DNA of 64,000 bases from Oceanicaulis sp. HTCC2633 (lineage in GTDB: Bacteria > Pseudomonadota > Alphaproteobacteria > Caulobacterales > Maricaulaceae). Below, in pieces: positions 3,826 to 11,464 of the stretch (positions are counted from its first letter, which is position 1; the number at the start of each line of letters is the position of its first letter). The stretch is from positions 1,050,916-1,114,915 of the forward strand of contig NZ_CH672428.1 of the NCBI RefSeq assembly GCF_000152745.1, written 5' to 3'. The translations under genes were made by a program, and so were the position numbers. The notes under the pieces were generated by a model. That model was not told the DNA's origin. It was given only the letters and a program-made list of their open reading frames with translations, and did no database searches.

Positions 3826-4602
3826 CTAGTCCTCGGCCGCTTGTCTTAACACGGCGCGTCCGCGCGGACCGCCAAAATATTCCTGGATCCAGGGGTGCTC
3901 ATTGCGGGTCAGCTCCGACAATGGCGCATTTGCAATCACGCGCTTGTCCGCCAGCACCGCCACCCGGTCGCAGATCGCATGCAGGCTATCAAGGTCATGA
4001 GTGATCATCACCACGGTCAGCCTGAGCGTGTCCGAGAGCTCCTTGATCAGACTGTCAAACGCGCTCGCGCCGATCGGATCAAGCCCGGCGGTCGGCTCGT
4101 CCAGGAACAGGATGTCCGGGTCGAGCGCCAGCGCCCGGGCCAGGCCGGCGCGCTTCTTCATGCCCCCAGACAGCTCGGCCGGGAACTTGCCGCCCGCCTC
4201 GCCAGCCAGGCCGACAAGTCCGATCTTCAGGTCGGCGAGCTCCTTCATCAGGCTCGCCGGCATGCGCAAATGCTCCCGCATCGGCGCCATGACGTTCTCC
4301 TGCACGGTCAGCGATGAAAACAGCGCGCCCGACTGGAACAGGACGCCCCAGCGTTTTTCCAGCGCCAGCCGGTCCTTGCCGCTGAGCCGGGACATGGCCT
4401 GGCCGCGAAAGTAGATCTCGCCGGCGTCAGGTTTCTTCAGACCCAGTATGGTGTTGACGAGCACGGACTTGCCGGTGCCGGATCCGCCGACAATGCCCAG
4501 AATCTCGCCCTGACGCACTTCAAGGTCGAGATTGTCGTGAACCACATGGGAGCCGAACTGGCTGCGCAGGCCGCGCACTTCGATCAGGGGAGCATCGGTC
4601 AT
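3826..4602 (-). CDS. mlaF: Mla-type ABC transporter ATP-binding protein
   Basis: 258 aa ABC ATPase with all core motifs: Walker A GGSGTGKS (about 39-46), signature LSGGMKKRAGLARAL, Walker B ILFLDEPTAGLDP and H-loop MITHDLDSLH. The GMKKRAGLARA version of the signature is typical of MlaF. It should energise the MlaE permease for phospholipid movement across the inner membrane. Its ATG overlaps the mlaE stop by four bases (ATGA), indicating translational coupling, and mlaD follows directly. Confidence 0.9.
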   Translation of the reverse strand: MTDAPLIEVRGLRSQFGSHVVHDNLDLEVRQGEILGIVGGSGTGKSVLVNTILGLKKPDAGEIYFRGQAMSRLSGKDRLALEKRWGVLFQSGALFSSLTVQENVMAPMREHLRMPASLMKELADLKIGLVGLAGEAGGKFPAELSGGMKKRAGLARALALDPDILFLDEPTAGLDPIGASAFDSLIKELSDTLRLTVVMITHDLDSLHAICDRVAVLADKRVIANAPLSELTRNEHPWIQEYFGGPRGRAVLRQAAED

Positions 4603-5753
4603 ATGTCGAGCTCCAGATACATCATGGCGAACAGGGCATCGATGACAATGACGGCGAAGATCGCCTGCACCACCGAGGTGGTGACGCGTTTGCCCAGGCT
4701 TTCGACATCGCCGCCCACCTGCAGGCCATGACGACAGCCCACAATGGCGATGACCAGACCGAAGACCGGCGCCTTGGACATGCCCACGAGGAAATGCTTG
4801 AGGTCGATCGTGTCGTTGAGGCGCGTCAGGAAAAAATTGGGCGAGATGTCCAGCGTCATCCAGCTCACCAGCATCCCGCCGAACACGCCCGCCACCATGG
4901 CCGACAGCGTCAGCAGCGGCGCCATCACCACACAGGCGATCACGCGCGGCAGGACGAGCACTTCATAGGGGTCGAGCCCCATCACCTTCATGGCGTCGAT
5001 TTCCTGCTGCATCTTCATCGAGCCGATGGCGGCGGTGAAGGCGGAATCTGATCGCCCAGCCAGCAGGATGGCGGTGATGATGACGCCAAACTCGCGCAGC
5101 ACCGCAATGCCCACCAGATCCACGGTGAACACCGAGGCGCCGAAGGTCTCCAGAAGGCTCGCGCCCATGAAGGCGACCACCGCGCCGATGAAGAAGCTGA
5201 GCACGGAGATGATGGGCAGGGCGTCCACGCCCGCCGTCTCCATCAGATGGATCGTGGAGGTCCAGCGCATCTTGGTGGGATTCACCAGCACGCTCAGACC
5301 GGTGGTGAAGGTGCGCCCGAAGAAGGCGAAGGACTCAACCGTTTCCTTCAGCCCGTCCTCGACGCCCTGTCCGATCCGCGCCAGCGTGCTGATCACGCCC
5401 CGCGGCTGGATCTCGTCCTCGGGACAGTCGGCGAGACGCTGCAGCATTTCGCCCATCATCCGGCGGGCGGTCTGATGCTCGCCGATGAAATGGCGGTCTG
5501 CATCGGGTTCACGGCATCGGCTCAGGGTCCGGCCCAGCACATAGGCCCCGGCCGTATCGATGCGGCCCAGCCCGGACAGGTCAATGACCAGATCCTTGGG
5601 GTCTGTCTCGCTCTCGATGCGACGCAGGCGACGATCAAATCGTCCCACAGCCTCCATCAGCCAGTCGCCCTTGGGCTCGACGATCAGACGGGCGCCGTCC
5701 TGACGCGTGGTCAGCTCCGCCGGCTGACGCTCCTGGGCGATCGCTGCTGTCAT
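4599..5753 (-). CDS. mlaE: STAS-MlaE fusion, lipid ABC transporter permease
   Basis: About 384 aa. Residues 1-120 form a STAS-like domain (DLVIDLSGLGRIDTAGAYVLGR). The rest is an MlaE permease with about five to six membrane spans and the family patterns LREFGVIITAILLAGRSDSAFTAAIGSMK and EIDAMKVMGLDPYEVLVLPR. In enterobacteria the STAS protein MlaB is separate; here it is fused to the permease, as is common in alphaproteobacteria. The start at 5753 is chosen because AGGGGAAGACGGGG lies just upstream. In-frame ATGs at 5774 and 5804 are weaker, and the 5804 one would overlap the MFS stop. First gene of the lipid-transport operon proper. Confidence 0.88.
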   Translation of the reverse strand: MTAAIAQERQPAELTTRQDGARLIVEPKGDWLMEAVGRFDRRLRRIESETDPKDLVIDLSGLGRIDTAGAYVLGRTLSRCREPDADRHFIGEHQTARRMMGEMLQRLADCPEDEIQPRGVISTLARIGQGVEDGLKETVESFAFFGRTFTTGLSVLVNPTKMRWTSTIHLMETAGVDALPIISVLSFFIGAVVAFMGASLLETFGASVFTVDLVGIAVLREFGVIITAILLAGRSDSAFTAAIGSMKMQQEIDAMKVMGLDPYEVLVLPRVIACVVMAPLLTLSAMVAGVFGGMLVSWMTLDISPNFFLTRLNDTIDLKHFLVGMSKAPVFGLVIAIVGCRHGLQVGGDVESLGKRVTTSVVQAIFAVIVIDALFAMMYLELDI

Positions 5754-5803
5754 GGTCCCCGTCTTCCCCTGCATCCCTGACGATAACCGGGAGTATGGCC
5801 CCA

Positions 5804-6979
5804 TTATGTCTGTGTTCGCGACGATTGCACGAGCCAGAGTGCGAAGATCAATCCCAGACCGGAGGGAAGGGCCATGAGGGCGAACCCGCCCACGCCAAAC
5901 GCCTTGAACGCAAAGCCGGAGGCATAGGCCGCCAACGCCAGCACCAGACCGCCTGAAAACGCCGAGTTGATCGCCTGGGCCATGGAGGCGAACCGTTGCG
6001 GACTGTGGTCTGCCGCGTATCGCAGGAACCCCAGATAAGTTGCGCTGAAGCTGAGCGCATGCAGCAGCTGCAGGGGGAAGAGGAGCCAGAGCGGCGGTGA
6101 GGCCGCAAGCGCGAGCCAGCGCAGGATCGAGGCCGCGCCTCCGAGCGCCAGCATGAGAGCCGGACTGAGCCGCCCGAGAAGCCGTCCTGAAAAGGTCAGG
6201 AACACGATTTCAGCGCCCACCCCGGTCGCCCAGAGCAAGCCCACTGCGCTTGAGGGCACGCCTTCGGCGCGCCAGGCGACTGCGGAAAACCCGTAATAGA
6301 AGCCATGGGCGCCCTGGATCAGGGCCGAAGCGGCGAAGGCCAGCGGCAGACCGTTCGAGATCATCGCGCGCAGCACGCCATGGGACTCGTCCGGGGCTAG
6401 CAGGCGATGATGGGGCTGGTTGCGTCCGACGGGCAGCATCAACGCCGTGAGCACCGCGAGCGCCGACCCGACCAGCGTCCAGCCCAGGGCCGCCTCGCCG
6501 CCCAGCTGTCCGATCAGCCAGCCTGCGCCCACATTGCCCAGGATGAAGGTCGCCGAACCAAACGCGCGGGGCGGCCCGAAAGCGAACTTCTTGCGAGTGG
6601 ATTGCTGGATCGCGAAGGCGTCGATGATCGGCATGATGCCGGTGAAGGCGCCCCCGGCGATGCCCGCCAGCACAATGATGGCCCAGGGGTTTGTCGCAGG
6701 CACGAAAGCGGCGAAGGCGAAGAAGGAGACAAGGGTATAGGTCAGCACCGCCCATTGCTTCTTCGGCGCCCGATCCGCCAGCATCGCGCCGAGCGGCGCT
6801 GCGATCATGCGCCCCGCCATGGACGCCGCCGCGGCCGCGCCGATCATTTCCGGACTCAGCCCCCGCGCTTCATACCAGACGGGCATGTACGGCAGGTAGG
6901 CGCCGAACCCCAGATAGAAGGCGCCATAGAACAGCGCGAAGCGCACGGGGCGCGGAATCTGGACCGGCAATGCGAACAT
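5804..6979 (-). CDS. MFS transporter (MFS_1-like)
   Basis: 391 aa with about 12 hydrophobic segments. The start MFALPVQIPRPVRFALFYGAFYLGFG, the PYMPVWYEARGLSPEMIG stretch and the two-half layout resemble the MFS_1-like/HcaT-like sugar or aromatic-acid symporter subfamily. Substrate unknown. It lies directly upstream of the lipid-transport operon on the same strand, about 50 bases before the preferred mlaE start, so co-transcription is possible. It diverges from the GT4 gene across a 107-base gap. Confidence 0.75.
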   Translation of the reverse strand: MFALPVQIPRPVRFALFYGAFYLGFGAYLPYMPVWYEARGLSPEMIGAAAAASMAGRMIAAPLGAMLADRAPKKQWAVLTYTLVSFFAFAAFVPATNPWAIIVLAGIAGGAFTGIMPIIDAFAIQQSTRKKFAFGPPRAFGSATFILGNVGAGWLIGQLGGEAALGWTLVGSALAVLTALMLPVGRNQPHHRLLAPDESHGVLRAMISNGLPLAFAASALIQGAHGFYYGFSAVAWRAEGVPSSAVGLLWATGVGAEIVFLTFSGRLLGRLSPALMLALGGAASILRWLALAASPPLWLLFPLQLLHALSFSATYLGFLRYAADHSPQRFASMAQAINSAFSGGLVLALAAYASGFAFKAFGVGGFALMALPSGLGLIFALWLVQSSRTQT

Positions 6980-7086: not shown

Positions 7087-8388
7087 ATGAGAGACGCCGT
7101 CCCAGATCCGACCCAGACCCGCTCCGCGCGCCTGCGCGTGCTGGTCTCCAGTTATCGCTCTGCGCCCCATGTGGGCGGTCAGGGCGTATATGTCCGCGCC
7201 CTGTCGCGCGCCCTCGCCGATCAGGGTTGCGAGGTGTCGGTGATTTCCGGCCCGCCCTATCCCGATCTTGACCCGGATATCGGACTGATCGAACTGCCAT
7301 CTCTGGATTTGTTCAGCGTCGATAACGCCTTCCTGCAATTGCGCTGGAAGACGCTGTTCGACCGGGCGGACCGCACCGAATGGCTGTCACACAATACCGG
7401 CGCCTTCGCCGAGATGATCAGCTACGCCATCCGGCTCGAAGCCTGGGTCGCCCAGCATGGCGACCAGTTCGACGTGATCCATGACAACCAGACCCTGGCT
7501 CTGGCCATGGCGGGCGTGGACCAGTACCTGCCGGTCATCACCACCTTGCATCACCCCATCGCCATTGACCGCGACTTCGCGGTGGCAGGAGCGGCGAACT
7601 GGTGGCGGCGCGCCCTGACCCGGCGCTGGCATTCCTTTGTGGATCATCAGGCGAAAGCCGCGCGGGCCCTGCCGCGCTTCCTGGCGGTGTCGGACGCAGC
7701 GCGACAATCCTACGCCCGGCATTGCGGCGTTGATCCTGACAAGGTGCGCGTGGCGTTCAACGGGCTCGACCTGGACAGCTTCAAACCCGATCCGACCGTC
7801 GAACGGGATGCGGACCATGTCCTGGCCCTCGCCAGCGCCGATGTGCCCATCAAGGGGCTCGATGTTCTGATCGATGCGATGGCCAAGCTGAAGGCCCGCG
7901 GCCGCACGCCCCGACTGACGGTCATTGGCCAGCTGCGCGACGGGCCTACCAAGCGCGCCCTGGTCGAAACCGGTCTTCTGGACAGCGTCGAGTTCGTCTC
8001 GGGACTGAGCCTTGATGAAATCGTCGCGCTCTATCGCAAGGCGACGGTGTTCGTCTCCGCGTCCCGTTTTGAAGGCTTCGGCTTTCCGGCAGCGGAGGCG
8101 ATGGCCTGTGGCGCCCCGGTGATCGTCTCGCGCGGCGGCGCCCTGCCCGAAGTCGCGGGCGAGGCCGGGATCGTCACCGAAGTCGAGGACGCGGACGGAC
8201 TCGCAGACGCGCTGGAGCGCGTGCTGTCGGATCCCGAGCTGCAACAGCAGATGAGCGCGGCCTGCGCGGCGCGCGCCCATAGCGCCTTTCGCTGGGACGA
8301 GCATGCGCGCGCCAGCCTTGATCTTTACTACGACGCGCTCTCCGAGCGCGGACGCCTGCCGGATGTGACGGAGCTTGCCGCCCAATGA
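7087..8388 (+). CDS. Family 4 glycosyltransferase
   Basis: 433 aa GT-B fold enzyme. The N-terminal half opens with SYRSAPHVGGQGVYVRAL, the acceptor-side GG(Q)G loop of GT4 enzymes. The C-terminal half carries the nucleotide-sugar signature EGFGFPAAEAMACGAPVIVS (an E-x7-E motif) followed by GGALPEVAG. It should transfer a sugar from an NDP donor; donor and acceptor are not readable. It is the first gene of a unit in which each gene overlaps the next by four bases, with a methyltransferase and an alpha/alpha-toroid protein following. No signal peptide; cytoplasmic. Confidence 0.85.
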   Translation: MRDAVPDPTQTRSARLRVLVSSYRSAPHVGGQGVYVRALSRALADQGCEVSVISGPPYPDLDPDIGLIELPSLDLFSVDNAFLQLRWKTLFDRADRTEWLSHNTGAFAEMISYAIRLEAWVAQHGDQFDVIHDNQTLALAMAGVDQYLPVITTLHHPIAIDRDFAVAGAANWWRRALTRRWHSFVDHQAKAARALPRFLAVSDAARQSYARHCGVDPDKVRVAFNGLDLDSFKPDPTVERDADHVLALASADVPIKGLDVLIDAMAKLKARGRTPRLTVIGQLRDGPTKRALVETGLLDSVEFVSGLSLDEIVALYRKATVFVSASRFEGFGFPAAEAMACGAPVIVSRGGALPEVAGEAGIVTEVEDADGLADALERVLSDPELQQQMSAACAARAHSAFRWDEHARASLDLYYDALSERGRLPDVTELAAQ

Positions 8389-9107
8389 TGGTGACGCTGG
8401 ACCTTGATGCGCTGGACCTTCAGGACGGTCAGCGTGTCCTTGACCTGGGCTGTGGCCGGGGCCGCCACAGCCATGCCTTCTACTGGCATGACAAGGCGCT
8501 CGACGTGACCATGCTCGATCTCAGCCTTGAGGATCTCAAGAGCGCCGTCGACGGCTTTTTCGAGCTGCCCCCGCCCCCGCAGACCCCGCCGCGCAGCGCG
8601 GTCTGGTGCGTCGGCGATGCGGGCCGCCTGCCCTTTGCCGATAACAGCTTTGAGGTGGTGATCTGCTCTGAAGTGCTCGAGCATCTGCCCGATGTGGATG
8701 CGGCGCTCGATGAGATCACCCGCATTGTCAAACCGGGCGGGCGCTTTGCGCTGTCCGTGCCGCGCTACTGGCCGGAGAAGATCTGCTGGGCCCTGTCTGA
8801 AGGCTATCAGAACACCCCCGGCGGACATGTGCGCATCTTCCGCGATCATGAGCTTCGCGACCGGGTCGCGAGCCGCGGCTACCGCCCCTACAAGCGACAC
8901 TGGGCGCACGCCCTGCACTCGCCCTATTGGTGGCTGCGCTGCGCCAAATGGGAACGCCAGGAAGAGAGCCGCACGGTCAACGCCTTCCGCAAGCTGCTGG
9001 AATGGGATCTGATGGAAAAGCCGCGCCTGACGCGCTGGACCGAAGCCGCGCTCAACCCGATCATGGGCAAGTCCGTCGCGCTTTATTTCCAGAAGGACGC
9101 GGCATGA
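8385..9107 (+). CDS. Class I SAM-dependent methyltransferase
   Basis: 240 aa. Motif I VLDLGCGRGRHS (about 19-30) binds S-adenosylmethionine. GDAGRLPFADNSFEVVICSEVLEHL is the typical post-II/III region of Methyltransf_11 enzymes, and VKPGGRFALSVPRYWPEKICW follows. The product is soluble. The start overlaps the glycosyltransferase stop by four bases, and the stop overlaps the next start by four, so these are almost certainly one translation unit. The likely role is methylation of the same glycan, lipid or small molecule the glycosyltransferase acts on (inference). Confidence 0.85.
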   Translation: MMVTLDLDALDLQDGQRVLDLGCGRGRHSHAFYWHDKALDVTMLDLSLEDLKSAVDGFFELPPPPQTPPRSAVWCVGDAGRLPFADNSFEVVICSEVLEHLPDVDAALDEITRIVKPGGRFALSVPRYWPEKICWALSEGYQNTPGGHVRIFRDHELRDRVASRGYRPYKRHWAHALHSPYWWLRCAKWERQEESRTVNAFRKLLEWDLMEKPRLTRWTEAALNPIMGKSVALYFQKDAA

Positions 9108-10207
9108 GCCATCGCCCGCAATCCATCGGCGTCGACATCGCCGCCTGCGCCGACCGGATCGAGGACCTGCAATTGCGCGACGGCGCGATCCCCTGGATCG
9201 AGACCGGCGTCTGGGACCCCTGGAACCATGGTGAAAGCGCCATGGCGCTGGCGGTCGCAGGACGCGAGACGGCGGTGCACGCCGCCCTTGATGCGCTGGC
9301 CGAGCGTCAGCATGAAGACGGCTCTTGGCTGGGTGAGCTGGGCGCTGGCGTGCCCATGGATGAAAGCGGGGACCGTATCGCCCCGCCTGAAAACCCGGTC
9401 ACCGCCCGTGACACCAATTTCACCGGCTATGCCGCGGTCACCGTGCTGCGCTGTGCGCTGGCGCTCGATGAGCCGCGCCTGATCGCCCGCCATGCCGGGA
9501 TGATCACGAGGGCGCTCGACTGGGTGGTCAGCCACCAGACGCCCCATGGCGATGTGGTCTGGCGCAAGCCCGATGACGGCCAGCCGCTCGAAGACGTGGA
9601 CTCGCTCAAGGCCGGCAACGCCTCGCTCTACAAGAGTCTCGAGTGCGGATTGCGCATTGCCGATGCGCTCGATCAGTCCCGCCCCGACTGGGCGCGCGCC
9701 CGCAAGACAATCGCTCAGACCTTCACGGACCGGCCACACCGGTTTGATCGGCTGGGCGAGGATCGCTCCCGCTACGCCATGGACTGGTATTATCCGGTTC
9801 TGTCCGGCGTTCTGACCGGTCTGGGCGCCAAGGCGCACCTGCACGCAGGCTGGGACAAGTTCGTGGTCGAGGACCTGGGCTGCCGCTGCGTCAGCGAGGA
9901 GCCCTGGATCACCGCCGCCGAAACGGCCGAACTGGCGCTGGCCTGTCTGAGCATTGGCGAAACCGTGCGGGCGCAACGTCTCCTGGGCGCGCTGGCGCCT
10001 CTGGCGCGGGATGGTCTGGGCTACTGGATGGGCTGGCAGTTCGAGCTGGGCCAGGTCTGGCCCAAAGAACGCCCCAGCTGGACGGCGGGCGCGGTCGTAC
10101 TGGCCGCTGACGCCCTTTACGGGCTCAGCAATGGATCAGACCTTCTGATCCGTCACGCCCGGCCGGACGCCTGGCTCAAAGGCGACGCAGAATCTCGAGC
10201 GTATTGA
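9104..10207 (+). CDS. Alpha/alpha-toroid protein, 'prenyltransferase-like'
   Basis: About 367 aa from the ATG overlapping the upstream TGA; reading frame further upstream is ignored because the methyltransferase occupies it. It contains spaced Trp/Gly-rich hairpins: WDPWNHGESAMAL, ERQHEDGSWLG, SRYAMDWYYPVLSG, EEPWITAAETAEL, YWMGWQFELGQVWPKE and SWTAGAVVLAADAL. This spacing of QxxDGSW and PWxTAAETAE repeats fits an (alpha/alpha)6 toroid as in squalene cyclase, prenyltransferase and some glycoside hydrolases. No DxDD cyclase motif is seen, so prenyl or terpene chemistry is not shown. It is consistently linked here to a GT4 and methyltransferases; its real activity is unknown. Its 3' end overlaps the convergent methyltransferase by 32 bases. 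Confidence 0.7.
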   Translation: MSHRPQSIGVDIAACADRIEDLQLRDGAIPWIETGVWDPWNHGESAMALAVAGRETAVHAALDALAERQHEDGSWLGELGAGVPMDESGDRIAPPENPVTARDTNFTGYAAVTVLRCALALDEPRLIARHAGMITRALDWVVSHQTPHGDVVWRKPDDGQPLEDVDSLKAGNASLYKSLECGLRIADALDQSRPDWARARKTIAQTFTDRPHRFDRLGEDRSRYAMDWYYPVLSGVLTGLGAKAHLHAGWDKFVVEDLGCRCVSEEPWITAAETAELALACLSIGETVRAQRLLGALAPLARDGLGYWMGWQFELGQVWPKERPSWTAGAVVLAADALYGLSNGSDLLIRHARPDAWLKGDAESRAY

Positions 10208-10808
10208 TCCGCTCGACCGGCTCGAACAGGCCCGACGCGACCGCGAGCTTCCAGATTTCATAGGGCGGGCGTCCCCCGTCCTCGGGATTGGGGAAGACGT
10301 CATGGATGGCCAGCAGGCCGCCACGCGCCACATGTCCCGCCCAAGCGCGATAATCGGCCAATGCCGTATCCATGGCGTGACCGCCATCAATGAACACAAA
10401 GCTCAGGGGCGCGGACCAGTGTGCGCCAATGACAGCAGACGGCCCGACAACCGGAACCACGTTCTGCTCAAGATCGGCGAGCGCGATCGTGCGGCGAAGC
10501 GCCGGCAGGGTGTCGACCCGGCCCAGTTCGGCGTCAAACAGGTCGGGATCGTGATAGCCCTCGCCCGGCTGATGCTCTTCAGAACCGCGATGATGGTCGA
10601 TGGCGAACAGCACACGGCCCGCCTCCCGCGCAGCGCGGCCCAGATAGACGCTGGAGCGACCACACCAGCTGCCGATCTCGACAAAGGCGCCTGGCGCAGT
10701 GTGTGACGCACGGATTGCATGACGGGCCAAGGCCTGGCCCTCGTCATCGGCGAGGAAGCCCTTGACGGTTTGAGGGTCGAGCGCATCGCCCGGAAGAGTC
10801 TCTGACAT
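10176..10808 (-). CDS. Class I SAM-dependent methyltransferase (Methyltransf_24 type)
   Basis: 210 aa. GAFVEIGSWCGRSSVYLGRAA is a SAM-binding motif I of the Methyltransf_24/CmcI-like kind. VLFAIDHHRGSEEHQ gives the acidic post-I strand, and LSFVFIDGGHAMDTALADYRAW is the metal-dependent-type motif (FIDGGH). The enzyme is convergent with the toroid gene and overlaps its 3' end by 32 bases, so the two transcripts can pair. Its position suggests membership of the same pathway as the GT4 unit, although on the other strand. Its ATG overlaps by one base the stop of the lipoprotein's neighbour side, so it is probably co-transcribed after an upstream start near the divergent promoter. Confidence 0.8.
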   Translation of the reverse strand: MSETLPGDALDPQTVKGFLADDEGQALARHAIRASHTAPGAFVEIGSWCGRSSVYLGRAAREAGRVLFAIDHHRGSEEHQPGEGYHDPDLFDAELGRVDTLPALRRTIALADLEQNVVPVVGPSAVIGAHWSAPLSFVFIDGGHAMDTALADYRAWAGHVARGGLLAIHDVFPNPEDGGRPPYEIWKLAVASGLFEPVERINTLEILRRL

Positions 10809-11464
10809 CAGCTGGACAGGCCCTGACTGGATTGCGCCGCCCAGCGCCGTTCAGCCAGCGCGTCGGCGGCATCGGCAAGGCGGGTCTTCTCCGCCGCAAG
10901 CAAGGAGAGCGCTTGCGCAATCTGCGCTTCGTCCGCGTCCGGACCAAAGCCTTCGGAGACAGCCTTGAAGAAGTCCTCTGCGCGACGCACTGCGCCCAGC
11001 GCGCCTTCAGCAGACGCAAGATCCTGTGTCAGCGTCGCCTGGCCGAGACCCTGAGCGCTCTCGCTGACATTGTCGGCGGCGTCCGCCACCCCCTGCGCCA
11101 GAGTGGTCAGTTGAGCGATATCCTCATGGAAGGCGAGCACAACATTGGCGCCCTGGGCTTCTACATAGAGGCTGACAGGATCCGATTGCGCGTCAGCGTC
11201 CTCGCCGCCATTGATCAGGCGGGAAAAGAATTGTCGCGCGGCGTCTGCAGGTCCGGCCGTGAGGGTCCAGCCCTCCTCGTCCACCAGCGCGCTCAGTCGC
11301 GCCGCCTGTGAACGCAGACGCGCCTCCGCCTCGATGTCCGCCTGGGAGTCCGCGCCCAGGGTGATCGGTTGACTGGCGCATCCGGCCGCAAGGCTGCAGG
11401 TGCATAAACCGACTACCAGGCCCAGAGTCCTGAAGACCGTGTGCATGTCGAAGCGATCCTTCAT
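10808..11464 (-). CDS. Putative lipoprotein, function unknown
   Basis: About 218 aa from the ATG at 11464, which has GGGGGAG upstream. The N-terminus MKDRFDMHTVFRTLGLV continues into a hydrophobic stretch ending in the lipobox LAAGC, so the product should be lipidated and exported. The mature part is Ala/Asp/Glu-rich and helical, with no recognised domain. A second ATG 18 bases later would still leave a complete signal peptide. It directly precedes the Methyltransf_24 gene on the minus strand (adjacent or one-base overlap), suggesting a two-gene transcript divergent from the peptidase gene. Confidence 0.6.
   Translation of the reverse strand: MKDRFDMHTVFRTLGLVVGLCTCSLAAGCASQPITLGADSQADIEAEARLRSQAARLSALVDEEGWTLTAGPADAARQFFSRLINGGEDADAQSDPVSLYVEAQGANVVLAFHEDIAQLTTLAQGVADAADNVSESAQGLGQATLTQDLASAEGALGAVRRAEDFFKAVSEGFGPDADEAQIAQALSLLAAEKTRLADAADALAERRWAAQSSQGLSS

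Follow-up and report, generated by a model that had tools for sequence, protein, structure and literature searches.

The closest described relative of the locus considered here is the mycobacterial gene cluster for 3-O-methylmannose polysaccharide (MMP), which comprises MeT1, MmpH, pMeT3 and ManT (Maranha et al. 2023, PMC9883506; statements on the MMP system follow that paper). MmpH, the methylmannose polysaccharide hydrolase of Mycolicibacterium hassiacum, is represented by PDB entry 7QSJ and ManT by 7QSG. The barrel fold of MmpH and the position of its catalytic base resemble those of the (alpha/alpha)6 glycosidases of the glycoside hydrolase families GH15 and GH125. MMP has been proposed to bind (sequester) fatty acyl-CoA, and in M. 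smegmatis an mmpH mutant was devoid of MMP, with slower growth at 15 degrees C. The 6-O-methylglucose lipopolysaccharide (MGLP) is likewise an intracellular polymethylated polysaccharide, made of a different sugar and by different enzymes. We analyzed a stretch of 64,000 nucleotides (the window) from the 3.17 Mb genome of Oceanicaulis sp. HTCC2633 (Maricaulaceae, Alphaproteobacteria; contig NZ_CH672428.1, positions 1,050,916 to 1,114,915), in which four neighbouring genes are related to the mycobacterial ones, that of pMeT3 by position only. With a probability of about 0.9, these genes form an MMP-type cluster, the alphaproteobacterial version of the mycobacterial pathway. That the exact product is the same as mycobacterial MMP is less certain. 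The pathway is already known; the alphaproteobacterial host is unexpected.

The assignment follows from homology, the retained catalytic residues of MmpH and ManT, the conserved gene order and the strict co-occurrence of MmpH and MeT1, while the mycobacterial enzyme specificities and the production of the polymer are what we infer from these comparisons. The gene succession (ManT, pMeT3, MmpH, MeT1) is that of the M. hassiacum tags MHAS_04402-04405 and the M. avium tags 2755-2758; in the M. smegmatis tags as printed in PMC9883506, MmpH and MeT1 are swapped. This likeness is one of gene succession. Unlike its mycobacterial counterpart, the cluster resides in a Gram-negative alphaproteobacterium in which a domain of type I fatty-acid synthase was not found, it encodes an MmpH with asparagine in place of Asp50, and it is known from genes alone. 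Among actinobacteria, Rhodococcoides (L057), Saccharopolyspora (L070) and Streptomyces (L076) have the same order and strands as the window (ManT+, MeT3+, MmpH+, MeT1-), with MeT1 1.6 and 1.1 kb away from MmpH in the latter two; their MmpH proteins are 39-41% identical to that of the window.

Homology of the four proteins

The alpha-alpha toroid protein encoded by the third gene (Table 1) matched 7qsj in a phmmer search with an E value of 3.6e-59, the sole PDB match at E<=1. Its AlphaFold2 model (predicted local distance difference test, pLDDT, 89.2; predicted template modelling score, pTM, 0.91) retrieved two 7qsj chains as top Foldseek matches (E 1.3e-28 and 2.9e-28, 35% identity), after which the next match dropped to E 7.4e-8. 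Other glycosidases gave no sequence match at this threshold and far weaker fold matches. On the basis of sequence and model, the toroid protein is an MmpH homologue, the predicted endomannosidase of MMP biosynthesis. In the phmmer alignment to 7qsj, the catalytic-site residues Asp47 and Glu262 of MmpH are kept as D38 and E273, as are Trp49, Asn101, Phe102, Met215, Tyr219, Glu265 and Trp315. The closest relative in the scan, also from Oceanicaulis, has an MmpH 94% identical to that of the window.

The first gene encodes a glycosyltransferase of family 4 (GT4) with the Pfam domains Glycos_transf_1/Glyco_transf_4. It matched 7qsg, labelled 'D-inositol 3-phosphate glycosyltransferase' in the PDB table, with a phmmer E value of 3.5e-81 over residues 15-419; the next-best PDB match had E 1.3e-19. 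The equivalents of ManT Lys240 (K256), Glu313 (E329), Glu321 (E337), His142 (H155) and Gly15 (G30) are kept, Leu291, Gly314 and Phe315 as well, and Leu317 is replaced by Phe. Across 95 aligned rows the places of Lys240, Glu313 and Glu321 are invariant, whereas His142 is conserved in 75 and Gly15 in 74, the remainder being gaps.

The middle methyltransferase belongs to Pfam Methyltransf_11 and matched only general S-adenosylmethionine (SAM) methyltransferases in the PDB (best E 4.7e-11). Its relative at the corresponding place in Rhodococcoides is 45% identical, and relatives fill this slot in 69 of the 79 loci described below. By its position it is the probable counterpart of the putative 3-O-methyltransferase pMeT3. 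The fourth protein (Pfam Methyltransf_24) gave a single PDB match at E<=0.01, 6g7d (phmmer E 9.1e-59), which the PDB table labels 'Methyltransferase domain protein' and which we take to be the 1-O-methyltransferase MeT1; this identity reportedly goes back to Ripoll-Rozada in 2019. In PHROGs the only match was a weak one of this protein to a DNA methyltransferase.

Conservation of the four-gene set

A search with the toroid protein gave 115 relatives, of which the best 80 were kept; their gene neighbourhoods were compared in 79 loci. In 69 of these the four genes are arranged as in the window (ManT+, MeT3+, MmpH+, MeT1-), which is beyond chance. The gap between MmpH and MeT1 is at most 100 bases in 52 of these 69 loci and nowhere exceeds 2.9 kb. 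Among the ten other loci, four (L014, L044, L066, L068) are truncated next to the set where their contig ends, while three (L036, L042, L072) sit on contigs of about 4 kb. With ten kb on each side, L049 has ManT, MeT3 and MmpH and no MeT1 at the locus, and L062 has MmpH alone, as does L069 within three kb. A full MeT1 (E below 1e-84) is encoded elsewhere in the genomes of L036, L042, L049, L062 and L072, in that of L062 together with ManT and MeT3 on another contig. In the L069 genome MeT1 was found only as a fragment of 43 residues where a contig begins, and in the L068 genome it was not found.

In the class sample, 34 of 385 genomes had a strong MmpH match and the same 34 had MeT1 (E <= 1e-40), always on one contig, at most 1.4 kb apart, and spread over 13 family codes. 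A further genome (G390; E 9.3e-4, 37 residues) was left out of the original 35 because such a short, weak match was counted as chance. MmpH matches were obtained in 36 of 200 genomes of the order sample, namely in 27 of the 40 listed in the window's family (f1), in eight of f2 and in one of f3; within f1 presence tracks genera, with, for example, five of five listed genomes of g1 and none of seven of g4. One order relative, G140, has MmpH twice, on contig C17 and on contig C1, and the C1 locus (L147) has the full four genes. The phylum sample (299 genomes, the window's own, G000, included) yielded strong matches and the full four genes in two others, G683 and G677, after seven weaker matches (E 7.6e-6 to 5.5e-4) had been set aside. 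In this sample and in the class search for MeT1, at most seven or eight first-look candidates were scored per genome, so that relatives may be missed. The set occurs in genomes down to about 1.4 Mb (G248, G467). Two loci of family f54, L145 and L146, lie in AT-rich genomes (GC 0.33-0.35) of about 1.4 Mb and keep all four genes, a sign that the polymer is of importance also where genomes are small.

An earlier note on this DNA, made from the letters alone, had seen in the set its best candidate for an undescribed system, resembling a small pathway that glycosylates and methylates a lipid, glycan or small molecule, and had named gene co-occurrence and a structure prediction of the toroid protein as checks. 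The homologues do travel together rather than being scattered, and the predicted structure best matches MmpH. That the genes encode one co-operating set of enzymes which glycosylate and methylate a glycan is very likely. The novelty claim fails, since the toroid protein is a homologue of MmpH, a glycoside hydrolase whose pathway has been described (PMC9883506).

Points against the assignment and alternative readings

Several observations weigh against an MMP-type cluster. Asp50 of MmpH is replaced by Asn41 (window 9224-9226) and Thr163 by Ala170; asparagine occupies the Asp50 place in 89 of 100 aligned rows and aspartate in 11, and an alanine variant of Asp50 lost most of the activity (PMC9883506). 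ManT Asp293, a proposed contact of the GDP guanine (PMC9883506), is Leu here and varies widely among the rows. The role of pMeT3 is 'putative' in mycobacteria as well (PMC9883506). As to the supply of GDP-mannose, the pyrophosphorylase-like match in the genome covers positions 1-351 of 467 of the GMP_PMI model and, with 323.4 bits, falls under the curated cut-off of 372.95. The start of the first chain is not explained by the four enzymes. Finally, the literature searched, which mostly excluded subscription papers, contained no report of MMP or of these activities in alphaproteobacteria.

The same residue variation bears on a question left undecided in PMC9883506, whether Asp47 or Asp50 is the catalytic acid of MmpH. 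Because the Asp47 place is D in all 100 rows and that of Asp50 mostly Asn, natural variation favours Asp47. Glutamate is found at the places of Glu262 and Glu265 in 99 rows (one gap), and the Trp315 place holds W in 88, Y in 10 and a gap in two. In these counts the window gene is included twice (as window and as L080), and the rows are uncorrected for relatedness.

It is conceivable, albeit improbable, that the genes encode a sister pathway with the same logic of elongation, methylation, capping and cutting, applied to another sugar, linkage or methyl position, for instance a methylglucose or methylrhamnose chain. The moderate identity to Mycolicibacterium MmpH (35% in the fold alignment), the two exchanged residues of the MmpH pocket and the variable Asp293 place of ManT would fit such a pathway. 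However, Asn at the Asp50 place is also seen in actinobacterial rows (eight acidimicrobial-type rows, L058 and L061), other actinobacterial rows have Asp (L057, L070, L073, L076), nearly all of these rows share one gene set, and the next-best PDB relatives of ManT (by sequence) and MmpH (by fold) are far weaker.

It is even less probable, and in our view hardly credible, that the set decorates a lipopolysaccharide O-antigen or another exported glycan, with the neighbouring lipoprotein and major facilitator superfamily (MFS) transporter as partners. Wherever a Maricaulaceae locus extends far enough, the MFS-like and lipoprotein genes do nearly always lie on either side of the set, and an alpha-(1->2)-linked 3-O-methylmannose O-antigen of Oligotropha is cited by Maranha et al. 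2023 (PMC9883506). This reading was rejected because the two genes were seen next to the set in no group other than Maricaulaceae and a near relative. Besides, none of the four proteins has a 19-residue segment that reaches membrane-level hydrophobicity in a simple Kyte-Doolittle scan, and a cytoplasmic endo-hydrolase of the chain would make little sense in O-antigen export.

A terpenoid pathway with a cyclase or prenyltransferase of the squalene type next to a glycosyltransferase and methyltransferases can be dismissed: squalene-hopene cyclase matches in Pfam and NCBIfam are weak (E about 0.02; in Pfam E 0.022 and 14.2 bits against a cut-off of 26.1), drimenyl diphosphate synthase and squalene-hopene cyclase appear only among the lower fold matches, MmpH is the top fold match by 20 orders of magnitude in E, and a motif scan of the toroid protein found no DxDD. 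The doubts already raised about a 'prenyltransferase' label and the absence of DxDD were thereby borne out. The motifs QxxDGSW and PWxTAAETAE are present, but to call them repeats was an overstatement because each occurs once in the translation (QHEDGSW at residue 69, and PWITAAETAE).

Taxonomic range and origin

The MMP-type set has a wide range. The genome search in PMC9883506 was actinobacterial, and the main text does not contain 'proteobacter', 'phyla' or 'archaea'. As far as the literature was searched, the occurrence in many alphaproteobacterial families and in three archaeal genomes is new.

A tree was built from ManT, MeT3 and MmpH side by side for 68 of 106 MmpH rows (quick IQ-TREE run; support by the Shimodaira-Hasegawa-like approximate likelihood ratio test, SH-aLRT; midpoint root), with near-copies, rows lacking two or more of the three proteins and loci of families f57, f125 and f170 excluded; the group tallies leave out 25 rows without a group. 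The alphaproteobacterial rows, among them those of family codes f2, f8, f14, f23, f54, f95, f120, f127, f130 and f141, lie on one side of a branch with support 100, and the Actinomycetota rows on one side of a branch with support 96. The three archaeal rows group together (support 100), as do the three rows of Thermodesulfobacteriota with one labelled Myxococcota (support 100). The position of the two other Pseudomonadota, L141 and L142, outside the alphaproteobacterial rows is weakly supported, and L142 has a long branch. The G+C content at third codon positions (GC3) of ManT, MeT3 and MmpH is 0.79-0.81, similar to the adjoining MFS gene; MeT1 and the lipoprotein gene are somewhat lower (0.71-0.72). 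Because of the grouping in the tree, the root of which was not inferred, and the GC3 values like that of the MFS gene, the data fit an old inheritance in Alphaproteobacteria with losses rather than a recent arrival. A recent transfer from Actinobacteria found no support in this quick, midpoint-rooted tree. Spread by plasmids was likewise discarded: only one of 72,556 plasmid records matched, a Nonomuraea record of 11.85 Mb, chromosome-like in size.

In the archaea, three of 148 genomes of the Salinirussus phylum, that of Salinirussus included, had MmpH at E below 1e-119; in the Salinirussus genome it is split over two contig ends. The three loci, L138 (G901:C1:1324000-1343000), L139 and L068, contain ManT, MeT3 and MmpH in the usual order, and MeT1 was found in none of the three genomes at E <= 1e-6. 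The archaeal set is a reduced, possibly uncapped form of the pathway. An archaeal signal recognition particle (SRP) RNA scored above the Rfam cut-off in all three genomes; in G901, one 3.59 Mb contig carries both this RNA and MmpH. The search also returned short sub-threshold matches in three bacterial genomes, and four of 14 controls passed the cut-off, four of the controls being archaea. Upstream of the set, L138 encodes diacylglycerol-kinase-like and NUDIX proteins with close counterparts in L139.

Gene layout and neighbouring genes

The coordinates and gene calls of the earlier note (Table 1) hold on re-reading, including four-base overlaps at the GT4/methyltransferase and methyltransferase/toroid junctions and a 32-base overlap (10176-10207) between the toroid gene and the facing Methyltransf_24 gene. 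The lipoprotein gene and meT1 share one base at the meT1 start (10808, TGATG) and may therefore be translated jointly. A promoter scan gave no promoter-like sites; seven terminator-like sites were counted against 2.6 expected.

Table 1. Genes of the predicted MMP-type cluster and the adjoining lipoprotein gene (window positions)
Feature	Position	Strand	Length
manT homologue, predicted GT4 alpha-(1->4)-mannosyltransferase of MMP synthesis	7087..8388	+	433 aa
Methyltransferase in pMeT3 position, probable 3-O-methyltransferase of the growing chain	8385..9107	+	240 aa
mmpH homologue, predicted MMP endo-alpha-(1->4)-mannosidase, alpha-alpha toroid protein	9104..10207	+	367 aa
meT1 homologue, predicted 1-O-methyltransferase capping the reducing end	10176..10808	-	210 aa
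Putative lipoprotein, neighbour only, outside the module	10808..11464	-	218 aa

That a Methyltransf_24 gene and a lipoprotein gene face the other three is correct as a layout; the lipoprotein is a Maricaulaceae neighbour outside the widely conserved set, as only loci of this family, among them Euryhalocaulis, keep it next to the cluster. It matches no Pfam family at E<=0.1, and its signal-like start ends in AAGC, which a simple lipobox pattern does not accept. Just upstream of the MFS gene, at 3826-5804, an ATP-binding cassette (ABC) ATPase and a STAS-MlaE permease of lipid transport type are encoded, likely a case of plain synteny.

In a comparison of flanks of unequal length from 17 locus groups, no further gene was as widely shared as the four. 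Three extra sets of open reading frames (ORFs), conserved in 14-16 groups, lie opposite the core genes on the complementary strand and were read as shadow ORFs; one of them also takes in the MFS gene. Most other flanking sets are common only to Maricaulaceae and near relatives. ABC-transporter ATPases occur in six of the 17 groups and acyl-CoA dehydrogenases in four distant ones; as both are common families, neither was accepted as the missing chain starter. The acyl-CoA dehydrogenase genes (L066:3729-5021, L067:4591-6126, L070:13431-15614, L142:14947-16308) are perhaps chance neighbours, yet would fit a link to acyl-CoA metabolism. In two Syntrophobacterales-type metagenome-assembled genomes, hexapeptide-repeat (acyltransferase-like) and B12-binding radical SAM proteins are encoded between MmpH and MeT1 (L054:5618-8243, L056:11048-13376). 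These proteins might act on the polymer; an acetylated MMP is known from Streptomyces griseus (PMC9883506).

Proposed function

By the mycobacterial-type, self-recycling route, the cluster would produce a cytoplasmic 3-O-methylmannose polysaccharide. ManT would transfer alpha-(1->4)-linked mannose from GDP-mannose onto short methylmannoside primers (the mycobacterial enzyme does not use mono- and disaccharides in vitro; PMC9883506), MeT3 would methylate O3 of the added units and MeT1 would cap the free reducing-end 1-OH with a methyl group. Internal cleavage of mature chains by MmpH would then release new primers.

The type I fatty-acid synthase domain PF08354 was present in one of 44 MmpH-bearing genomes (Rhodococcoides) and in one of 14 controls (Corynebacterium glutamicum), and a search with this single profile did not find it in the window's genome. 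Since no such domain was found here, a general role of the polymer, binding long acyl or other hydrophobic chains or supporting growth in the cold, is likelier than control of a type I synthase. The result of one domain profile says nothing against the polymer binding acyl chains that a type II system makes, and the slow growth of the M. smegmatis mmpH mutant at low temperature keeps a cold-related role in play. The alphaproteobacterial and archaeal range suggests that a role beside type I fatty-acid synthase is not the whole story.

We see even chances that MMP is an old and widespread cytoplasmic glycan of prokaryotes, inherited mostly vertically in Alphaproteobacteria and represented in haloarchaea by a version with three genes and no MeT1 cap, and not an actinobacterial accessory of fatty-acid synthase I. 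If so, its original role would be independent of this synthase, and in archaea with their isoprenoid lipids independent of fatty-acid synthesis altogether. The variation of residues among the homologues bears on the catalytic-acid question of MmpH. So far, studies of MMP have dealt with mycobacteria and a small number of further actinobacteria. Its distribution would argue for a role independent of type I fatty-acid synthase, and culturable Maricaulaceae, other alphaproteobacteria and archaea would be harmless organisms in which this role could be tested.

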